NCBI GenBank assembly: GCA_027100635.1
Contig: JAMOOQ010000033.1
Coordinates: 1-38,371 of the forward strand
Direction: 5' to 3'
DNA: 38,371 bases
Origin: Campylobacteraceae bacterium
GTDB taxonomy: Bacteria > Campylobacterota > Campylobacteria > Campylobacterales > Sulfurovaceae
Shown: positions 2,958-33,028 of the stretch, in pieces
Numbering within the stretch: position 1 is the first letter of the stretch
Layout: each line of letters opens with the position of its first letter
Program-made: the position numbers and the translations under genes
The notes under the pieces: model-generated
Seen by the model: the letters and a program-made list of their open reading frames with translations, nothing else
Databases searched by the model: none
Told to the model about the DNA's origin: nothing

Positions 2958-3025
2958 AAAATGGTGCGTTGAAAACGGCACCCTACCAATCTTAATCTTT
3001 AAATTATTTTGGAATGGAATTCAAT

Positions 3026-3090
3026 GGCAACCAAGTGATTGCCCCTACAGAGTGTTGATTATGCGTAGGGGTATCCCCTTGTGGGTACCC
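3026..3090. repeat. Dispersed double-palindrome repeat GGCAACC...GGGTACCC, copy 1
   Basis: The 65-bp unit consists of a GGCAACCAAGTGATTGCC hairpin followed by a GGGTATCCCCTTGTGGGTAC-type hairpin. It is almost identical, in the same orientation, to 32861-32927. The flanking AAATTATTTT and ATTCAA are shared too, so the repeat may extend about 20 bp to the left. A half copy lies at 21375-21402. Confidence 0.85.
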
Positions 3091-3120
3091 AAGAATTAAG
3101 ATAATTGTAAATATTTTACA

Positions 3121-6934: not shown

Positions 6935-7978
6935 TTGCAACAGATATTACCATCATATAAAGATCCTTTATTTAGTATCTTACTAATAATAACTATTATA
7001 CTTGTAACAGTTATTGCAACTCATGGATTGAGTATATATTCTAAAAAAAAAAGTAAAAATGATTTATTAGAGTTCTTGAAAAAATTTAAAAATACTGATT
7101 GTACTTTTGACTTAAATGTTACTATTTTTGAATCTAATATGCTTAAACCACTTATTTTACTTGCAGAAGGTTTTAATAGTAATGGAGAATATCATAAAGC
7201 TATTAATATCTATTTATACCTTATAGATAATATAAATGATTATAAAATTAAAAATAATCTTCTTAATAGCTTAGGGCAACTTTATTTAAAAGCTGGTTTT
7301 TTAGAAAGAGCAAAGCATATATTTATCAAAATTCTTAAGTATTCACCAAGAAATATAGAATCACTTTATAATTTATCAATAGTTTATGATATGTTAAATG
7401 AATATAATAAGGCTCTTTTGTTAATTGAACCTTTGGATATATTAAAAGAAGATACAGAAAATTTTAAAAATTATTTTGAATATAAAATTGTTTTAACCAC
7501 TTATAAAAATTCAAAAAAACAGAAGATAATAGAATTAGAAAAGATGATAAAAAATAGACCTAGCTTATATAGAATAATATTATCTGATTTATTTATATTA
7601 GATAATCATCTTGCATGGAGAATACTAGATTATACAAGAATACAAGAAGTGTTAGATATATTATGGATGTTGCCAAAATCAAAACTTGATTTAGATATAA
7701 TTTCAAAACATAATACTTTAAGTACAATATACTATGCTAAAGGTTATATTCAAAAACCTTATGTTCAAAGTGATATATTTAGTGTAGATATGTTAGCCAT
7801 CTCAAAAAAGAGTGGTTTTGATAGAGCTGATTTAAACTTTTTATATCTATGTGATATATGTAAGCAGTCTTTTTCTCTATCATTTAATAGATGTTCAAAT
7901 TGTATGGCTATAAATAGTATAATAGTTGAGGGAAAAATTGCAGAAAAATATAAACAAACAAATTACTCTATATTCTGA
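6935..7978 (+). CDS. Membrane-anchored TPR protein with C-terminal zinc ribbon (LapB/YciM-like)
   Basis: The protein has 347 residues from TTG 6935, the first possible codon after the cyclase stop. An N-terminal transmembrane helix (about 10-32) supports this start. TPR-like helix pairs follow (GEYHKAINIYLYLI, YLKAGFLERAKHIFIKIL, YDMLNEYNKALLLIEPL). The C-terminus has two CxxC pairs (CDICKQSF, CSNCMAIN) that resemble the rubredoxin-type metal site of LapB/YciM. That architecture (anchor, TPRs, metal ribbon) is known from LapB, an LPS-assembly regulator in enteric bacteria. Whether this one does the same is uncertain. It lies directly upstream of rnhA and overlaps it by about 40 bp in another frame. 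Confidence 0.75.
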   Translation: MQQILPSYKDPLFSILLIITIILVTVIATHGLSIYSKKKSKNDLLEFLKKFKNTDCTFDLNVTIFESNMLKPLILLAEGFNSNGEYHKAINIYLYLIDNINDYKIKNNLLNSLGQLYLKAGFLERAKHIFIKILKYSPRNIESLYNLSIVYDMLNEYNKALLLIEPLDILKEDTENFKNYFEYKIVLTTYKNSKKQKIIELEKMIKNRPSLYRIILSDLFILDNHLAWRILDYTRIQEVLDILWMLPKSKLDLDIISKHNTLSTIYYAKGYIQKPYVQSDIFSVDMLAISKKSGFDRADLNFLYLCDICKQSFSLSFNRCSNCMAINSIIVEGKIAEKYKQTNYSIF

Positions 7979-13814: not shown

Positions 13815-15533
13815 TTAGACATTTCTTCTTACTTTTACTTTTATAGGATTAAACAGTTTTAATGCCTCTTTTACCATAGGTTCTTCTAAAATTTCTGAGC
13901 TATCTTTCTCTTTTGCACTATATATATCTCCTGCTGGTGGTGCAACACAAGAGCTTTTAGTTTCACAATCATCAAAATAATCATTAGAACTATCGGAGGT
14001 GATAGCTTCAGCCTCACTCAAAGTTGGAACTAAAGCATCACTTCCCACTTCTTTTTTAGTTAAAACTTTTTTTTTTGAGTTACTTTTTATTTTAGTATCT
14101 ATCCCAAAAATATCTTGAGTAAAAGTTTTTATAATATTCCAATGAGATATTAACATCTTTTTATCGCTATCAATCGCTGTTGAATCCCATGTAAGGGTAT
14201 TATCTATAAAACTATAATATGCTATGTTTTTATTAAAACACTCCCCTAATTCATAGTTTCTATCATAAATTTTATCTACAAGCTTTTTAAAATTTATATT
14301 TGATATATCTATTGGTTTAGGCTCTTCTTTTATAGCCTCTTCTTTTTGTATTATAGTATCTTTTTTAAGTAAATCTTCTTTAATATTATCTTTTAGTACT
14401 TTAGCTTCAACTTTTGGTGATGGTAAAGCCGTCATTTCCGATGAGTTATCTATTTGAGTAACTGTTATTTCATGAAGTTCTTTCTCTAATGATTTTATCA
14501 TACTATCAATATCTTTTATATTCAAAGATTCCATCATTTTAAATAGTGTAAGAGCTAATATAAATTCACCATCTCCACCTATCTCAAATAATTTCTTTGA
14601 TTGTGATATTGCACGAAAAAACCTATCTATAATCATTGGCGTAAATTTTTTATCAGATGATAACAACAAATCTTTAAGATATATAGTTATCTCATCCATT
14701 ATCATCTCTGCTTCGTACTCTTTATTATGAGTTATAAACTCTAATATTTTGTCTTCCTCTCTGTTATAAATACTATTAAGCAAGTTTTCTATAAGAGATG
14801 GTTCTATGATTCCTAACATATTAACCACGGTATTCATATTAAGATAATTTTTACAATATACAATAGCTTGGTCTAAAAGTGTTATAGAGTCTCGTAAACT
14901 TCCAGCTCCTGACCTTGCAATAATATCAACTGCTTCGCTATCAAATTTAACATTTTCCATATTTAATATATGTTCAAGGTGTTTTTTTACTAATTTTTGA
15001 CTAATTTTTTTAAATCTAAAATGTTGTACTCGCGATAAAATAGTAGCAGGTAATTTTAGAGGGTCAGTGGTTGCTAATATAAATTTTACAAATGGTGGTG
15101 GCTCCTCTAACGTTTTAAGTAAAGCATTAAAAGCTTGAGTGGTCAGCATATGAATCTCATCTATAATAAAAATTTTATATCTTGCACTAGTCGGTTTATA
15201 TTTTGTATGCTCAATTAAATCTTTAATATCATCAATACCACGATTTGACGCTGCATCCATCTCTATAATATCCATATGACGGCTCTCATTCGCCATAATA
15301 CAATTAGAACACTGATTACATGGATGAGATGATGCACCTCTTTCACATAATAAAGCCTTGGCAAATATTCTTGCTGTTGATGTTTTTCCACTTCCTCTAA
15401 GACCAGAGAATAGATAAGCATGAGATATTTTATCTGTATCTAATGCCATGGACAAAGTTTGAGAAACGGTCTCTTGCCCTATTAAATCTTCAAAAGATGA
15501 TGGACGATATTTTCTTGCTAATGCAATAGACAA
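13815..15533 (-). CDS. dnaX: DNA polymerase III subunit tau/gamma
   Basis: This is the clamp-loader ATPase subunit. I choose TTG 15533 (572 residues): AAAGGAG lies 6 nt upstream and the protein then begins SIALARKYRPSSFEDLIGQ, as in the family. A longer reading from GTG 15593 would translate repeat DNA in mnmG. Visible elements are GLRGSGKTSTA (Walker A), four cysteines in CERGASSHPCNQCSNC (zinc site), IDEIHML (Walker B) and the TTDPLKLPATILSR sensor region. Domain III ends at about residue 360. The linker after it is variable and holds a diverged palindromic element (residues about 364-380), an A10 tract (about 486-489) and a clear palindromic element (497-513). Slippage at A10 in either direction gives a stop within four codons of the lysine run, leaving a 490-492 residue gamma-like product. 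The gene is 1 bp after mnmG and probably coupled to it. Confidence 0.95.
   Translation of the reverse strand: MSIALARKYRPSSFEDLIGQETVSQTLSMALDTDKISHAYLFSGLRGSGKTSTARIFAKALLCERGASSHPCNQCSNCIMANESRHMDIIEMDAASNRGIDDIKDLIEHTKYKPTSARYKIFIIDEIHMLTTQAFNALLKTLEEPPPFVKFILATTDPLKLPATILSRVQHFRFKKISQKLVKKHLEHILNMENVKFDSEAVDIIARSGAGSLRDSITLLDQAIVYCKNYLNMNTVVNMLGIIEPSLIENLLNSIYNREEDKILEFITHNKEYEAEMIMDEITIYLKDLLLSSDKKFTPMIIDRFFRAISQSKKLFEIGGDGEFILALTLFKMMESLNIKDIDSMIKSLEKELHEITVTQIDNSSEMTALPSPKVEAKVLKDNIKEDLLKKDTIIQKEEAIKEEPKPIDISNINFKKLVDKIYDRNYELGECFNKNIAYYSFIDNTLTWDSTAIDSDKKMLISHWNIIKTFTQDIFGIDTKIKSNSKKKVLTKKEVGSDALVPTLSEAEAITSDSSNDYFDDCETKSSCVAPPAGDIYSAKEKDSSEILEEPMVKEALKLFNPIKVKVRRNV
13995..14045 (-). 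repeat. Palindromic element inside dnaX (in frame)
   Basis: This 51-bp imperfect palindrome is identical at 42 of 51 aligned positions (hand count) to the element in mnmG. In DnaX it encodes [18 protein letters not shown] at residues about 497-514, against [18 protein letters not shown] in MnmG: same frame and same orientation. In the mRNA the arms pair as GGA-GTGAT-GCTT with AAGC-ATCAC-TCC around a loop. It lies in the poorly conserved linker before the tau-specific end, where an insertion would be tolerated. Confidence 0.85.
14067..14076 (-). other. A10 tract in dnaX, candidate slippage site
   Basis: On the coding strand ten A residues follow TC (TCA AAA AAA AAA GTT). With one A fewer the frame reads AAG TTT TAA; with one A more it reads AGT TTT AAC TAA. 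Both stop at once. A second tract, A6, lies at 14052-14057, and the palindromic element begins 6 nt after that. In Thermus thermophilus an A9 tract in dnaX produces gamma by transcriptional slippage; the same outcome is possible here. Confidence 0.5.
14395..14442 (+). repeat. Probable diverged, inverted copy of the palindromic element in dnaX
   Basis: Aligned by hand with the reverse complement of the mnmG element, 37 of 48 positions match, including CTTTAGCT, GGTGA and the terminal TTTCCGAT run (one change within CACTTCCGAT). It lies in frame in the DnaX linker and encodes SSEMTALPSPKVEAKVL. The opposite strand of the mnmG element, read in the corresponding frame, would encode [17 protein letters not shown]. 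Because the family is palindromic and this copy is diverged, homology is probable but not proven. Confidence 0.5.
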
Positions 15534-15534
15534 A

Positions 15535-17505
15535 CTAAACTCCTTTAAAAGATTTTTTGTAAAACTTATCGGAAGTGATGGCTTCAGCCTCACCGAAGGC
15601 TGGAGCTAAAGCACCAGTTCCAAATTTTGAAATAACTTTAACCTGTTTTTGTGCCATTTTAATATAAACATGTAAAATCTCTAACGCAGCAGGTGTTACT
15701 CCTGAAATCTGAGATGCACCAAATAGTGTAGGTGGTGTGGCAGTAAAAAGTTTTTCAACTATCTCATTGCTAAGCCCTGAAACTTTTTTAAAATCAAAAT
15801 TTTGTGGAATTTTAACCTTTAACATATCTTTCATTTTACTAACTTGAATCAATTGTTTTTCAATATATCGATTATATTTTGAATTAATTAAAATCTGCTC
15901 TATCACATCATCATTATATTTTTCAAACTCTGGAATAAGTGCAATCAATTTTTCTTTGTTAAATTCACCTCGTCCAACAATATCAATTAAAAAAGTTTTA
16001 TCATTAATTTTATCTTCACCCATATCTTTAAGTTTTACCAAAAACTCTTTAGTTGGTGTACCAAAATTCTCTTTTACAAAATCTATAGCCTCTTTTATAT
16101 TATCTCTCTTATTTTTAAATTTATCATAATATTCATCGCCTAAAAGTCCATATTTATACCCATATTTAGCAACTCGTATATCTGCATTATCTTCTCGTAA
16201 AAGTAATCTATATTCGGCACGGCTTGTAAACATTCTATAAGGCTCTTTTGTACCTTTTGTTACTAAATCATCAATTAATACACCAATATAAGCCTCTTCA
16301 CGACCCAATATAAACGGCTTCTCATCCCTTAAATTTAGCACAGCATTAATTCCTGCCATCAACCCTTGAGCTGCTGCCTCTTCATATCCAGTTGTTCCAT
16401 TTATCTGCCCTGCACAATATAATCCTGAAACTATTTTTGTCTCAAGAGTATGTTTTAAATCAGTTGGTTGCACAAAATCATATTCAATTGCATATCCATA
16501 TCGCACAATTTTAGCATTTTCCATCCCCTCAACAGAACGAATCATATCAAGTTGAACATCTGTTGGCAAAGATGTACTCATCCCATTAATATAACATTCA
16601 GTTGCTCCCATTGTTTGAGGCTCTACAAAAATTTGATGTCTTGGTCTATCACGAAAACGATTTATTTTATCTTCTATGCTCGGGCAATATCGCGGACCTA
16701 CACCATTTATTTGACCACTAAAAAGAGGGGCTCTATGAAAATTGGATTCTATAATATTATGAGTTATTTCATTTGTATAAGTTACAAAACACGGTAATTG
16801 CTTTGGATTAAATAATGCTTTATCTGTTCTAAAACTAAAAGGTGTTGCAGGATTATCTCCACCTTGTTCTTCCATTACATTAAAATCTATACTTTTTGCA
16901 TCAATTCTTGCACAAGTTCCAGTTTTTAATCTTCCAATATTTAATCCTAAATCTTTTAGATAATCTGCTAGTTTAATAGAAGCAAATTCACCCTGTCTTC
17001 CCCCACTAAGTTGTTTTTCTCCAATATGCATTACTCCATTTAAAAATGTTCCAGCAGTTATTATAACTTTAGATGATTCATATTTATTACCAAGTTCTGT
17101 TTCCACACCTTTTATAATCTTATCTTCAATTATTAAACTTGTTACCATCTCTTGTTTTACATCAAGATTATCACAATTAAGAACTTTATCTCTCATATAA
17201 ATACGATACGCATCCATATCAATTTGAGCTCTACTCCCTCGTACAGCAGGACCTTTTGAGCCATTTAAAATACGATATTGTATCCCCGTGGCATCGGTGC
17301 AAAGCCCCATCTCTCCACCAATCGCATCTAACTCTTTAACAAGATGACCTTTCGCAAGTCCACCAATCGCAGGATTACAAGATGAAGCTCCAATCTGCTC
17401 TGCTAAAATTGTGATTAAAAGAGTCTTCGCACCCATTCTAGCACTTGCTAAACTTGCTTCAATCCCAGCATGTCCACCACCTATTACAATAACATCATAT
17501 TTCAT
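15535..17505 (-). CDS. mnmG: tRNA uridine 5-carboxymethylaminomethyl modification enzyme, FAD subunit
   Basis: With MnmE it modifies the wobble uridine of several tRNAs, using FAD, GTP hydrolysis by MnmE and a folate C1 unit. It has 656 residues. The N-terminus has the dinucleotide fold [21 protein letters not shown]. Also visible are [20 protein letters not shown], the RLKTGT segment, [17 protein letters not shown] and [14 protein letters not shown]. The conserved C-terminal domain ends at about residue 620 with [20 protein letters not shown]. The last 30 or so residues are an extension made largely of the palindromic element ([18 protein letters not shown], about 629-645) plus [11 protein letters not shown]. 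That final codon run contains the Shine-Dalgarno sequence of dnaX. The ATG at 17505 is preceded by AGGAAA. Repeats fill the spacer to aroE upstream. Confidence 0.96.
15571..15621 (-). repeat. Palindromic element inside mnmG (in frame, C-terminal)
   Basis: The 51-bp element shares GCTTCAGCCTCAC and the terminal arms with the copies at 2823-2874 and 13995-14045. It is in frame near the 3' end of mnmG and extends the protein past the conserved domain. The dnaX ribosome-binding site lies 25-31 bp beyond it, so a hairpin here could affect coupling between mnmG and dnaX. Confidence 0.85.
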
Positions 17506-17853
17506 ATTTTTCCTAAGTTCTATCTAATTGCGTAATTATATCAAATTAGTTTAATATAGCTTATTAAGAATTTATTTTTTAAAAATTATTCCATTTGAAA
17601 AAACTACCATCTTTTTGTAAAATATGGCACATCTTTAATATAATAAAAAACTTGAAAAACTCTTTTTTAGATTCCGTGTCAAGCACGGAATGACAAACTA
17701 TCATCATCCCCTATCAAGCACGGAATGACAAACTATCATCATCATCCCCTATCAAGTATAGAATGACACTTGCTTGTCATTCTGAAAAAGTTGCTTGTCA
17801 TTCTGAATTTAATTCAGAATCTAGTTTTGAAAGAAGTCTATTTTTAAATTTTT
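17506..17853. repeat. Intergenic repeat cluster between aroE and mnmG
   Basis: The spacer has no gene. 17669-17695 is an exact inverted copy of the 27-bp repeat at 2931-2957. It is followed by two near-tandem units of about 35-38 bp starting AAGCACGGAATGACAAACTA (17681 and about 17717), separated by TATCATCATCCCC runs. Then come two copies of TTGCTTGTCATTCTGAA and a GAATTTAATTCAGAATCT palindrome (ending about 17822). The arrangement looks like repeated insertion and slippage of one palindrome family. 17506-17660 is AT-rich leader sequence for mnmG. Confidence 0.8.
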
Positions 17854-32795: not shown

Positions 32796-32860
32796 ACTAA
32801 TCCTAAAATTTTAAGTTTTAACTAATGTTACGCATATTTAAATTATTTTTAAAATTCAAG

Positions 32861-32927
32861 GGCAACCAAGGGATTGCCCCTATAAAAGGTTGATTATCCG
32901 TAGGGGTATATCCCCTTGTGGGTACCC
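32861..32927. repeat. Dispersed double-palindrome repeat GGCAACC...GGGTACCC, copy 2
   Basis: The 67-bp unit is nearly identical to 3026-3090 in the same orientation, differing by a few substitutions and a 2-base insertion (GGTATATCCCC for GGTATCCCC). It lies upstream of the gdh start. The rest of 32796-33028 is AT-rich, with no gene seen. Confidence 0.85.
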
Positions 32928-33028
32928 TAAGATATGGATAATTATAAATATTTATATAAAGTGCGTAATATCAACTTTTAAATTATAGTATAAAATTAAT
33001 AAAAATGTACTAATAAAAAGGGGTTTTT

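Follow-up and report, generated by a model that had tools for sequence, protein, structure and literature searches.

A recurrent A10 tract in a Sulfurovaceae dnaX gene is a probable slippage site for a short, gamma-like form of the clamp-loader subunit

Does an uninterrupted run of ten adenines near the 3' end of a dnaX gene enable that single gene to encode two proteins? The question is raised by a gene in the stretch of DNA analysed here, which is 38,371 nucleotides long and is referred to as the window. Its 572-residue product matches NCBIfam NF006280 (DNA polymerase III subunit gamma/tau; E 2.6e-214, residues 4-567), as well as the Pfam families DNA_pol3_delta2 and DNAX_ATPase_lid, although a search of the same genome with Pfam PF12169 (gamma3 domain) found no match. 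The features that define the problem are as follows:

15533..13815, minus strand: dnaX, DNA polymerase III subunit tau/gamma, with a TTG start at 15533 and 572 amino acids (translation)
14076-14067, minus strand: A10 tract, codons TC[A AAA AAA AAA], residues 486-489 (sequence)
14060..14062, minus strand: TAA that closes the frame entered by the loss of one A, giving a 490-residue product with the predicted end ...SKKKF (computed)
14056..14058, minus strand: TAA that closes the frame entered by the gain of one A or by a -1 ribosomal shift, giving a 492-residue product with the predicted end ...SKKKSFN (computed)

The coding strand at this site reads ...AGT AAC TCA AAA AAA AAA GTT TTA ACT AAA AAA GAA GTG GGA AGT.... 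An earlier note on this DNA had described an A10 run, an A6 run and a palindrome in that order, and the coding-strand sequence bears this out, with the A6 run located at 14057-14052, 3' of the A10, and the palindrome following it. Recomputing the shifted frames likewise upheld its statement that a slip in either direction ends the protein at 490-492 residues: the loss of one A yields AAG TTT TAA, and one extra A yields AGT TTT AAC TAA, which ends the protein after residue 492. The window has a G+C content of 28.7%, and three runs of nine or more adenines are present in its 38 kb when both strands are considered, the dnaX tract among them. A second ORF-internal A10 is located at 7043-7052 on the plus strand, near the start of the ORF at 6935..7978. 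As the whole assembly holds 73 nine-A matches, the chance of finding a sense-strand A9 in the ~220-nt dnaX linker is about 1%, and the window's A10 by itself is only mildly unusual for an AT-rich genome. The argument that the dnaX tract is more than chance is therefore based on a comparison with relatives, not on the single sequence.

The position of the tract determines what a shortened product would contain, and two further features are relevant:

14079..14306, minus strand: folded domain before the tract, residues ~410-485 (AlphaFold model, blocks with pLDDT 96-98)
13818..13955, minus strand: conserved C-terminal tail, SSCVAP...EEPMVKEALKLFNPIKVKV (conservation in the alignment), absent from the short form

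A gamma-like form of 490-492 residues would retain the last folded domain and all that precedes it, with the ATPase, the lid and the collar region; the flexible linker would be lost together with the conserved C-terminal tail. In the AlphaFold model the last folded domain has the predicted order helix-helix-strand-strand-helix-helix-strand. A KH fold is common to DnaA domain I, DciA and DnaX domain V (PMC9912922), and the pre-tract domain is probably tau domain V with a KH-like fold. This assignment is tentative because a profile search of solved structures with the DnaX C-terminal region returned no match and a fold search with the domain returned none below E 0.001; its Foldseek matches in the PDB are weak (best E 0.055) and include DnaA domain I complexes. 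On the 3' side of the tract, the alignment and the AlphaFold model reveal a hypervariable, low-confidence linker followed by the conserved tail, in which short helices are modelled. The Pol III alpha subunit of E. coli binds to the unstructured end of tau (Jergic et al. 2007, as cited in PMC11869525); by analogy, the alpha subunit would be held by the tail that is lost, and the short form would load clamps yet hold the polymerase less well. Because only the linker and the conserved tail are lost, the tail would be the main difference between the short form and tau, and such a difference would bear on why cells mix both forms in one clamp loader.

The tract of the window is one of many. Our main comparison comprised 133 complete, distinct dnaX genes from the same family (Sulfurovum and its allies), and an A9 or A10 run is present in the linker in 79 of them, a count of genes that are not phylogenetically independent and in which the long persistence of the tract is itself taken as the point. 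These linkers contain 49 A9 and 31 A10 runs (one gene has two) and no run longer than A10, while only four runs of nine or more adenines are found elsewhere in the 79 tract-bearing genes. The site is the linker that connects the last folded domain of DnaX to its conserved C-terminal tail, and in the first set of dnaX genes, which included 80 named loci, the tract directly follows a conserved ...FGxxTKIxNI block. Its relative position in the gene is 0.85 in the window and has a median of 0.854 among the tract-bearing genes. Run lengths in dnaX dip at A8 (6 runs) and rise at A9 (36) and A10 (12), whereas 334 kb of flanking DNA has no A9-A10 peak (20, 5 and 0 runs of A8, A9 and A10, respectively). 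The tract also occurs in family dnaX genes of 50-61% G+C. Beyond the family, a sample of 97 dnaX genes from 20 other families of the order contains 19 with a linker A9 or A10, among them genes of 51% and 59% G+C. The retention of the tract across much of the family and its renewed appearance elsewhere in the order suggest that a short form of DnaX is under selection, as judged from these gene comparisons.

The stops that follow the tract are much closer than the downstream codons would predict. The median distance to a stop is 1.5 codons when one A is lost and 2 codons when one is gained, as compared to 10 and 8 codons, respectively, when the downstream codons are shuffled; both shifted-frame stops lie within 10 codons in 90% of the tract genes, versus 31% after shuffling. 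In Sulfurovum the tract is often followed by GTA or GTG, and the loss of one A therefore creates an immediate stop; several relatives, Sulfurovum sp. AR among them, have an A9 followed by GTG. A different arrangement was observed in four dnaX genes of the family coded f15 (L270, L271, L272 and L274), where an A10 directly precedes a shifted-frame TGA (AAAAAAAAAATGA) such that one extra A leads to an immediate stop, apparently a second, independent form of the same signal. Base composition fails to explain the tract, since the G+C content of tract-bearing dnaX genes exceeds that of tractless ones (0.44 versus 0.38).

These comparisons bear on the simplest alternative, in which the tract arose by chance where a linker rich in lysine is encoded by DNA rich in A+T, and produces no useful slippage in this organism. 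Of the two other long adenine runs in the window, one also lies within an ORF, four members of the same genus (G001-G004) lack the tract, and it has been argued that some AT-rich bacteria may tolerate A9-A10 runs without much slippage (PMC1088944). However, the place, the length and the flanking stops of the window's tract match those seen across the family, GC-rich genes included, in which a string of AAA AAA AAA would be unexpected. We consider an accident unlikely, although it is the alternative that survives best. A tree built from DnaX residues 1-365, with the linker excluded, requires at least nine changes of the tract trait, as compared to 37 on average when the labels are shuffled. The tract is present in all basal clades of the family and in nearly all of the large Sulfurovum clade. 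Two clades, of 19 and 6 rows, lack it, as do all but one of the five members of the genus to which the window belongs; at the corresponding site these four congeners have AAA CCC AAA or AAA GAA AAA. On this tree, the window's tract would either have been retained while its congeners lost theirs, or have been regained by chance in an AT-rich genome. Because whole clades are without the tract, a short form made from it is inessential in the family.

The palindrome that follows the tract suggested to the earlier note that an inserted repeat had been recruited as a recoding hairpin. Two copies of the repeat are relevant to this proposal:

14048-13992, minus strand: copy of a dispersed palindromic repeat, in frame in the disordered linker of dnaX (predicted stem, repeat search)
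15567..15653, minus strand: second copy, in the part of mnmG that encodes the C-terminal end, immediately 5' of dnaX

The mnmG copy (gene identified by TIGR00136) is 74% identical to the dnaX copy, and a further copy is found in the window at about 2800-2850. The 24-mer core of the palindrome (GGTGAGGCTGAAGCCATCACTTCC) occurs at 35 places in its own genome and at none in a reversed control, and the repeat is patchily distributed, being present in 30 of 175 family genomes. It is inserted in several unrelated genes, always in frame, and the copies inside long ORFs have the same phase throughout (sense copies, 9 of 9; antisense copies, 7 of 7). An alignment shows that the dnaX gene of one congener (G001) is without the insert. 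The Rickettsia palindromic elements and intragenic REPs are also dispersed repeats that lie in frame inside genes (PMC3733652), and the repeat in the window resembles the former in being dispersed and in frame in unrelated genes, which is a likeness of behaviour; an Rfam scan of the window returned no match. Two other repeats were observed in the window: one (ATTCCGTGTCAAGCACGGAATGACA) is in tandem at 17665-17768 and has an inverted copy at 2929-2961, 14.7 kb away, and a third, of ~100 nt (TTGCCCCTA...GTAGGGGTATCCCCTTGTGGGTACCC), is located at 3018-3116 and 32853-32953, 29.8 kb apart.

If the palindrome had been recruited, its hairpin in the mRNA would promote a -1 shift of the ribosome on the A run, in the manner of the E. 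coli dnaX gene. A stable hairpin is indeed predicted 3' of the tract (the 111-nt RNA stretch that contains the palindrome folds with -26.9 kcal/mol, z -3.0), and strong palindromes of other sequence are present in the linker of several tract-bearing relatives, some of them 7-9 nt after the tract (L115, L106 and L063). However, the stem in the window begins 18-21 nt 3' of the tract, a spacing larger than that of the E. coli dnaX signal. The stability of the dnaX copy is average (rank 14 of 30 copies), none of the other 29 copies has a run of eight or more adenines within 150 nt upstream, and no Shine-Dalgarno-like stimulator is present 5' of the window's tract. A strong hairpin, past the cut-off, is present in the linker of 6 of 79 tract genes versus 0 of 54 tractless genes (p 0.08), which is no clear enrichment; a first sample had given 7 of 59 versus 0 of 51 (p 0.014), and because the larger family sample gave p 0.08, no enrichment of strong palindromes is claimed. 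A conserved hairpin 3' of the tract was also considered and rejected, as the mean z over 60 genes is -0.75 and the stretch 3' of the tract is the most stable part of the linker in 8 of 49 cases against 5.9 expected. For transcriptional slippage the geometry is no more favourable: RNA polymerase slips before any structure 3' of the tract has been transcribed. A known RNA stem-loop that stimulates polymerase slippage is located upstream of its slip site (PMC5009743). Frameshifting stimulated by a recruited hairpin is thus quite improbable, and this part of the earlier proposal is not supported, given the distance of the stem, its average stability and its absence from most tract-bearing relatives.

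The dnaX linker tolerates insertions, and recruitment of the palindrome in the window is unproven and unlikely; the palindrome would be a mobile-type, in-frame repeat that landed in a tolerant linker and stands outside the slippage mechanism. Another palindrome family (TTCGACARGCTCAG...CTGAGCYTGTCGAAG) was observed just behind the A tract in the dnaX linkers of four Sulfurovum loci (L106, L094, L103 and L063). Strong palindromes of at least four different sequences occur in tract-bearing linkers (the window, L079, L094/L106 and L115), and none as strong is found in tractless linkers. It is conceivable, if improbable, that palindromes repeatedly land behind the dnaX tract and take part in its function. 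Close palindromes would then act as ribosomal frameshift stimulators, and those farther away would be RNA structures that protect the transcript behind a stop made by slippage, as REPs may do at the ends of ordinary genes.

The manner in which lysine is encoded at the site bears on a different proposal, namely that the A run is kept for the protein because the linker needs a Lys-Lys-Lys patch. Such a patch is present at this place in many sequences, yet AAG would serve equally, and the triplet is written AAA AAA AAA in 56 of 63 cases. Among dnaX genes of at least 45% G+C, 21 of 23 Lys triplets are all AAA, while AAA accounts for 50-84% of the other Lys codons in tract-bearing genes of this composition. 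A need for lysine also leaves the stops in both other frames unexplained, and many relatives do without the patch, making this explanation very improbable. The AAA-only lysines, the twin nearby stops and the higher G+C content of tract-bearing genes together point to selection on nucleotides rather than on protein. Least credible of all is a contingency (phase-variable) locus in which DNA replication slippage switches tau, as might be suspected where a member of the Campylobacterota has a long homopolymer within a coding sequence, since the full-length frame is open through the tract in every complete family dnaX gene and tau is expected to be essential. The 23 family genes set aside as incomplete are where broken frames would be found; where checked, they end at contig boundaries or contain sequence errors away from the A run. 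The apparent frameshift in one dnaX gene (L128) is likely a sequencing error, because no A run is present there.

We therefore return to slippage, and estimate a probability of roughly three in four that the A10 tract of the window's dnaX gene is a slippage site giving two proteins; for the family as a whole the comparative evidence makes this reading very likely. Unslipped reading would produce tau, with 572 residues. When RNA polymerase omits or adds an A within the tract, translation of the resulting transcript would end one to three codons on, and ribosomal slipping on the A run may add to this. We infer both that slippage occurs at a useful rate and that it is mainly transcriptional. Of the earlier proposal that a gamma-like DnaX is made by slippage, the recurrent tract, the pure AAA codons and the twin stops thus lend support to the core, and only the recruited hairpin is set aside. 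With regard to mode, we favour transcriptional slippage by analogy with Thermus, given the length of the run and the presence of stops in both frames, together with the lack of an in-frame A_AAA_AAG heptamer, the scarcity of Shine-Dalgarno-like motifs and the lack of a conserved hairpin. The window's tract is read TCA AAA AAA AAA GTT and contains no in-frame A_AAA_AAG, no alternative slippery heptamers were found at the same place in tractless family dnaX genes, and AGGA, GGAG or GAGG occurs within 20 nt upstream of the tract in only 5 of 60 tract genes.

Two kinds of recoding are known for dnaX. The E. coli gene uses a -1 frameshift at A_AAA_AAG, two-thirds through the gene, with a Shine-Dalgarno-like stimulator and a stem-loop. 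The window's gene would resemble it in making a short form by a change of frame at an A-rich site with a hairpin downstream; unlike E. coli, it has no in-frame A_AAA_AAG and no Shine-Dalgarno-like stimulator, and its hairpin is distant and not conserved. GeneTack identified two-ORF dnaX genes, nine of them with A10, that were read as cases of transcriptional slippage and include those of Chlorobium and Chloroherpeton (PMC3711429). In those genes the long form needs a slip, whereas in the window the long form is the unslipped reading. Baranov and colleagues expressly excluded cases of truncation like dnaX from their survey of function because such cases are difficult to assess comparatively (PMC1088944), and the many genomes now available make the comparison feasible for dnaX. 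Slippage at dnaX in Campylobacterota is not reported in the open-access papers searched, an absence that is not proof.

The closest known system is the dnaX gene of Thermus thermophilus, for which transcriptional slippage has been described (Larsen et al. 2000, as cited in PMC1088944 and PMC5009743). Its A9 is located seven-eighths of the way through the gene (PMC1088944), with a stop close by in each of the other two frames (PMC5009743). The gene in the window shares a sense-strand run of the A9 type about seven-eighths through a single open frame (0.85), close stops in both other frames and a predicted short product that ends after the clamp-loader domains. It differs in that slippage was measured in Thermus and is inferred here, in a different phylum, and in that the run is A9 or A10 and is located in a linker that also takes in repeats. 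Judged by these shared features of sequence, the tract-bearing dnaX genes of the family very probably represent a further case of the Thermus-type slippage already described elsewhere.
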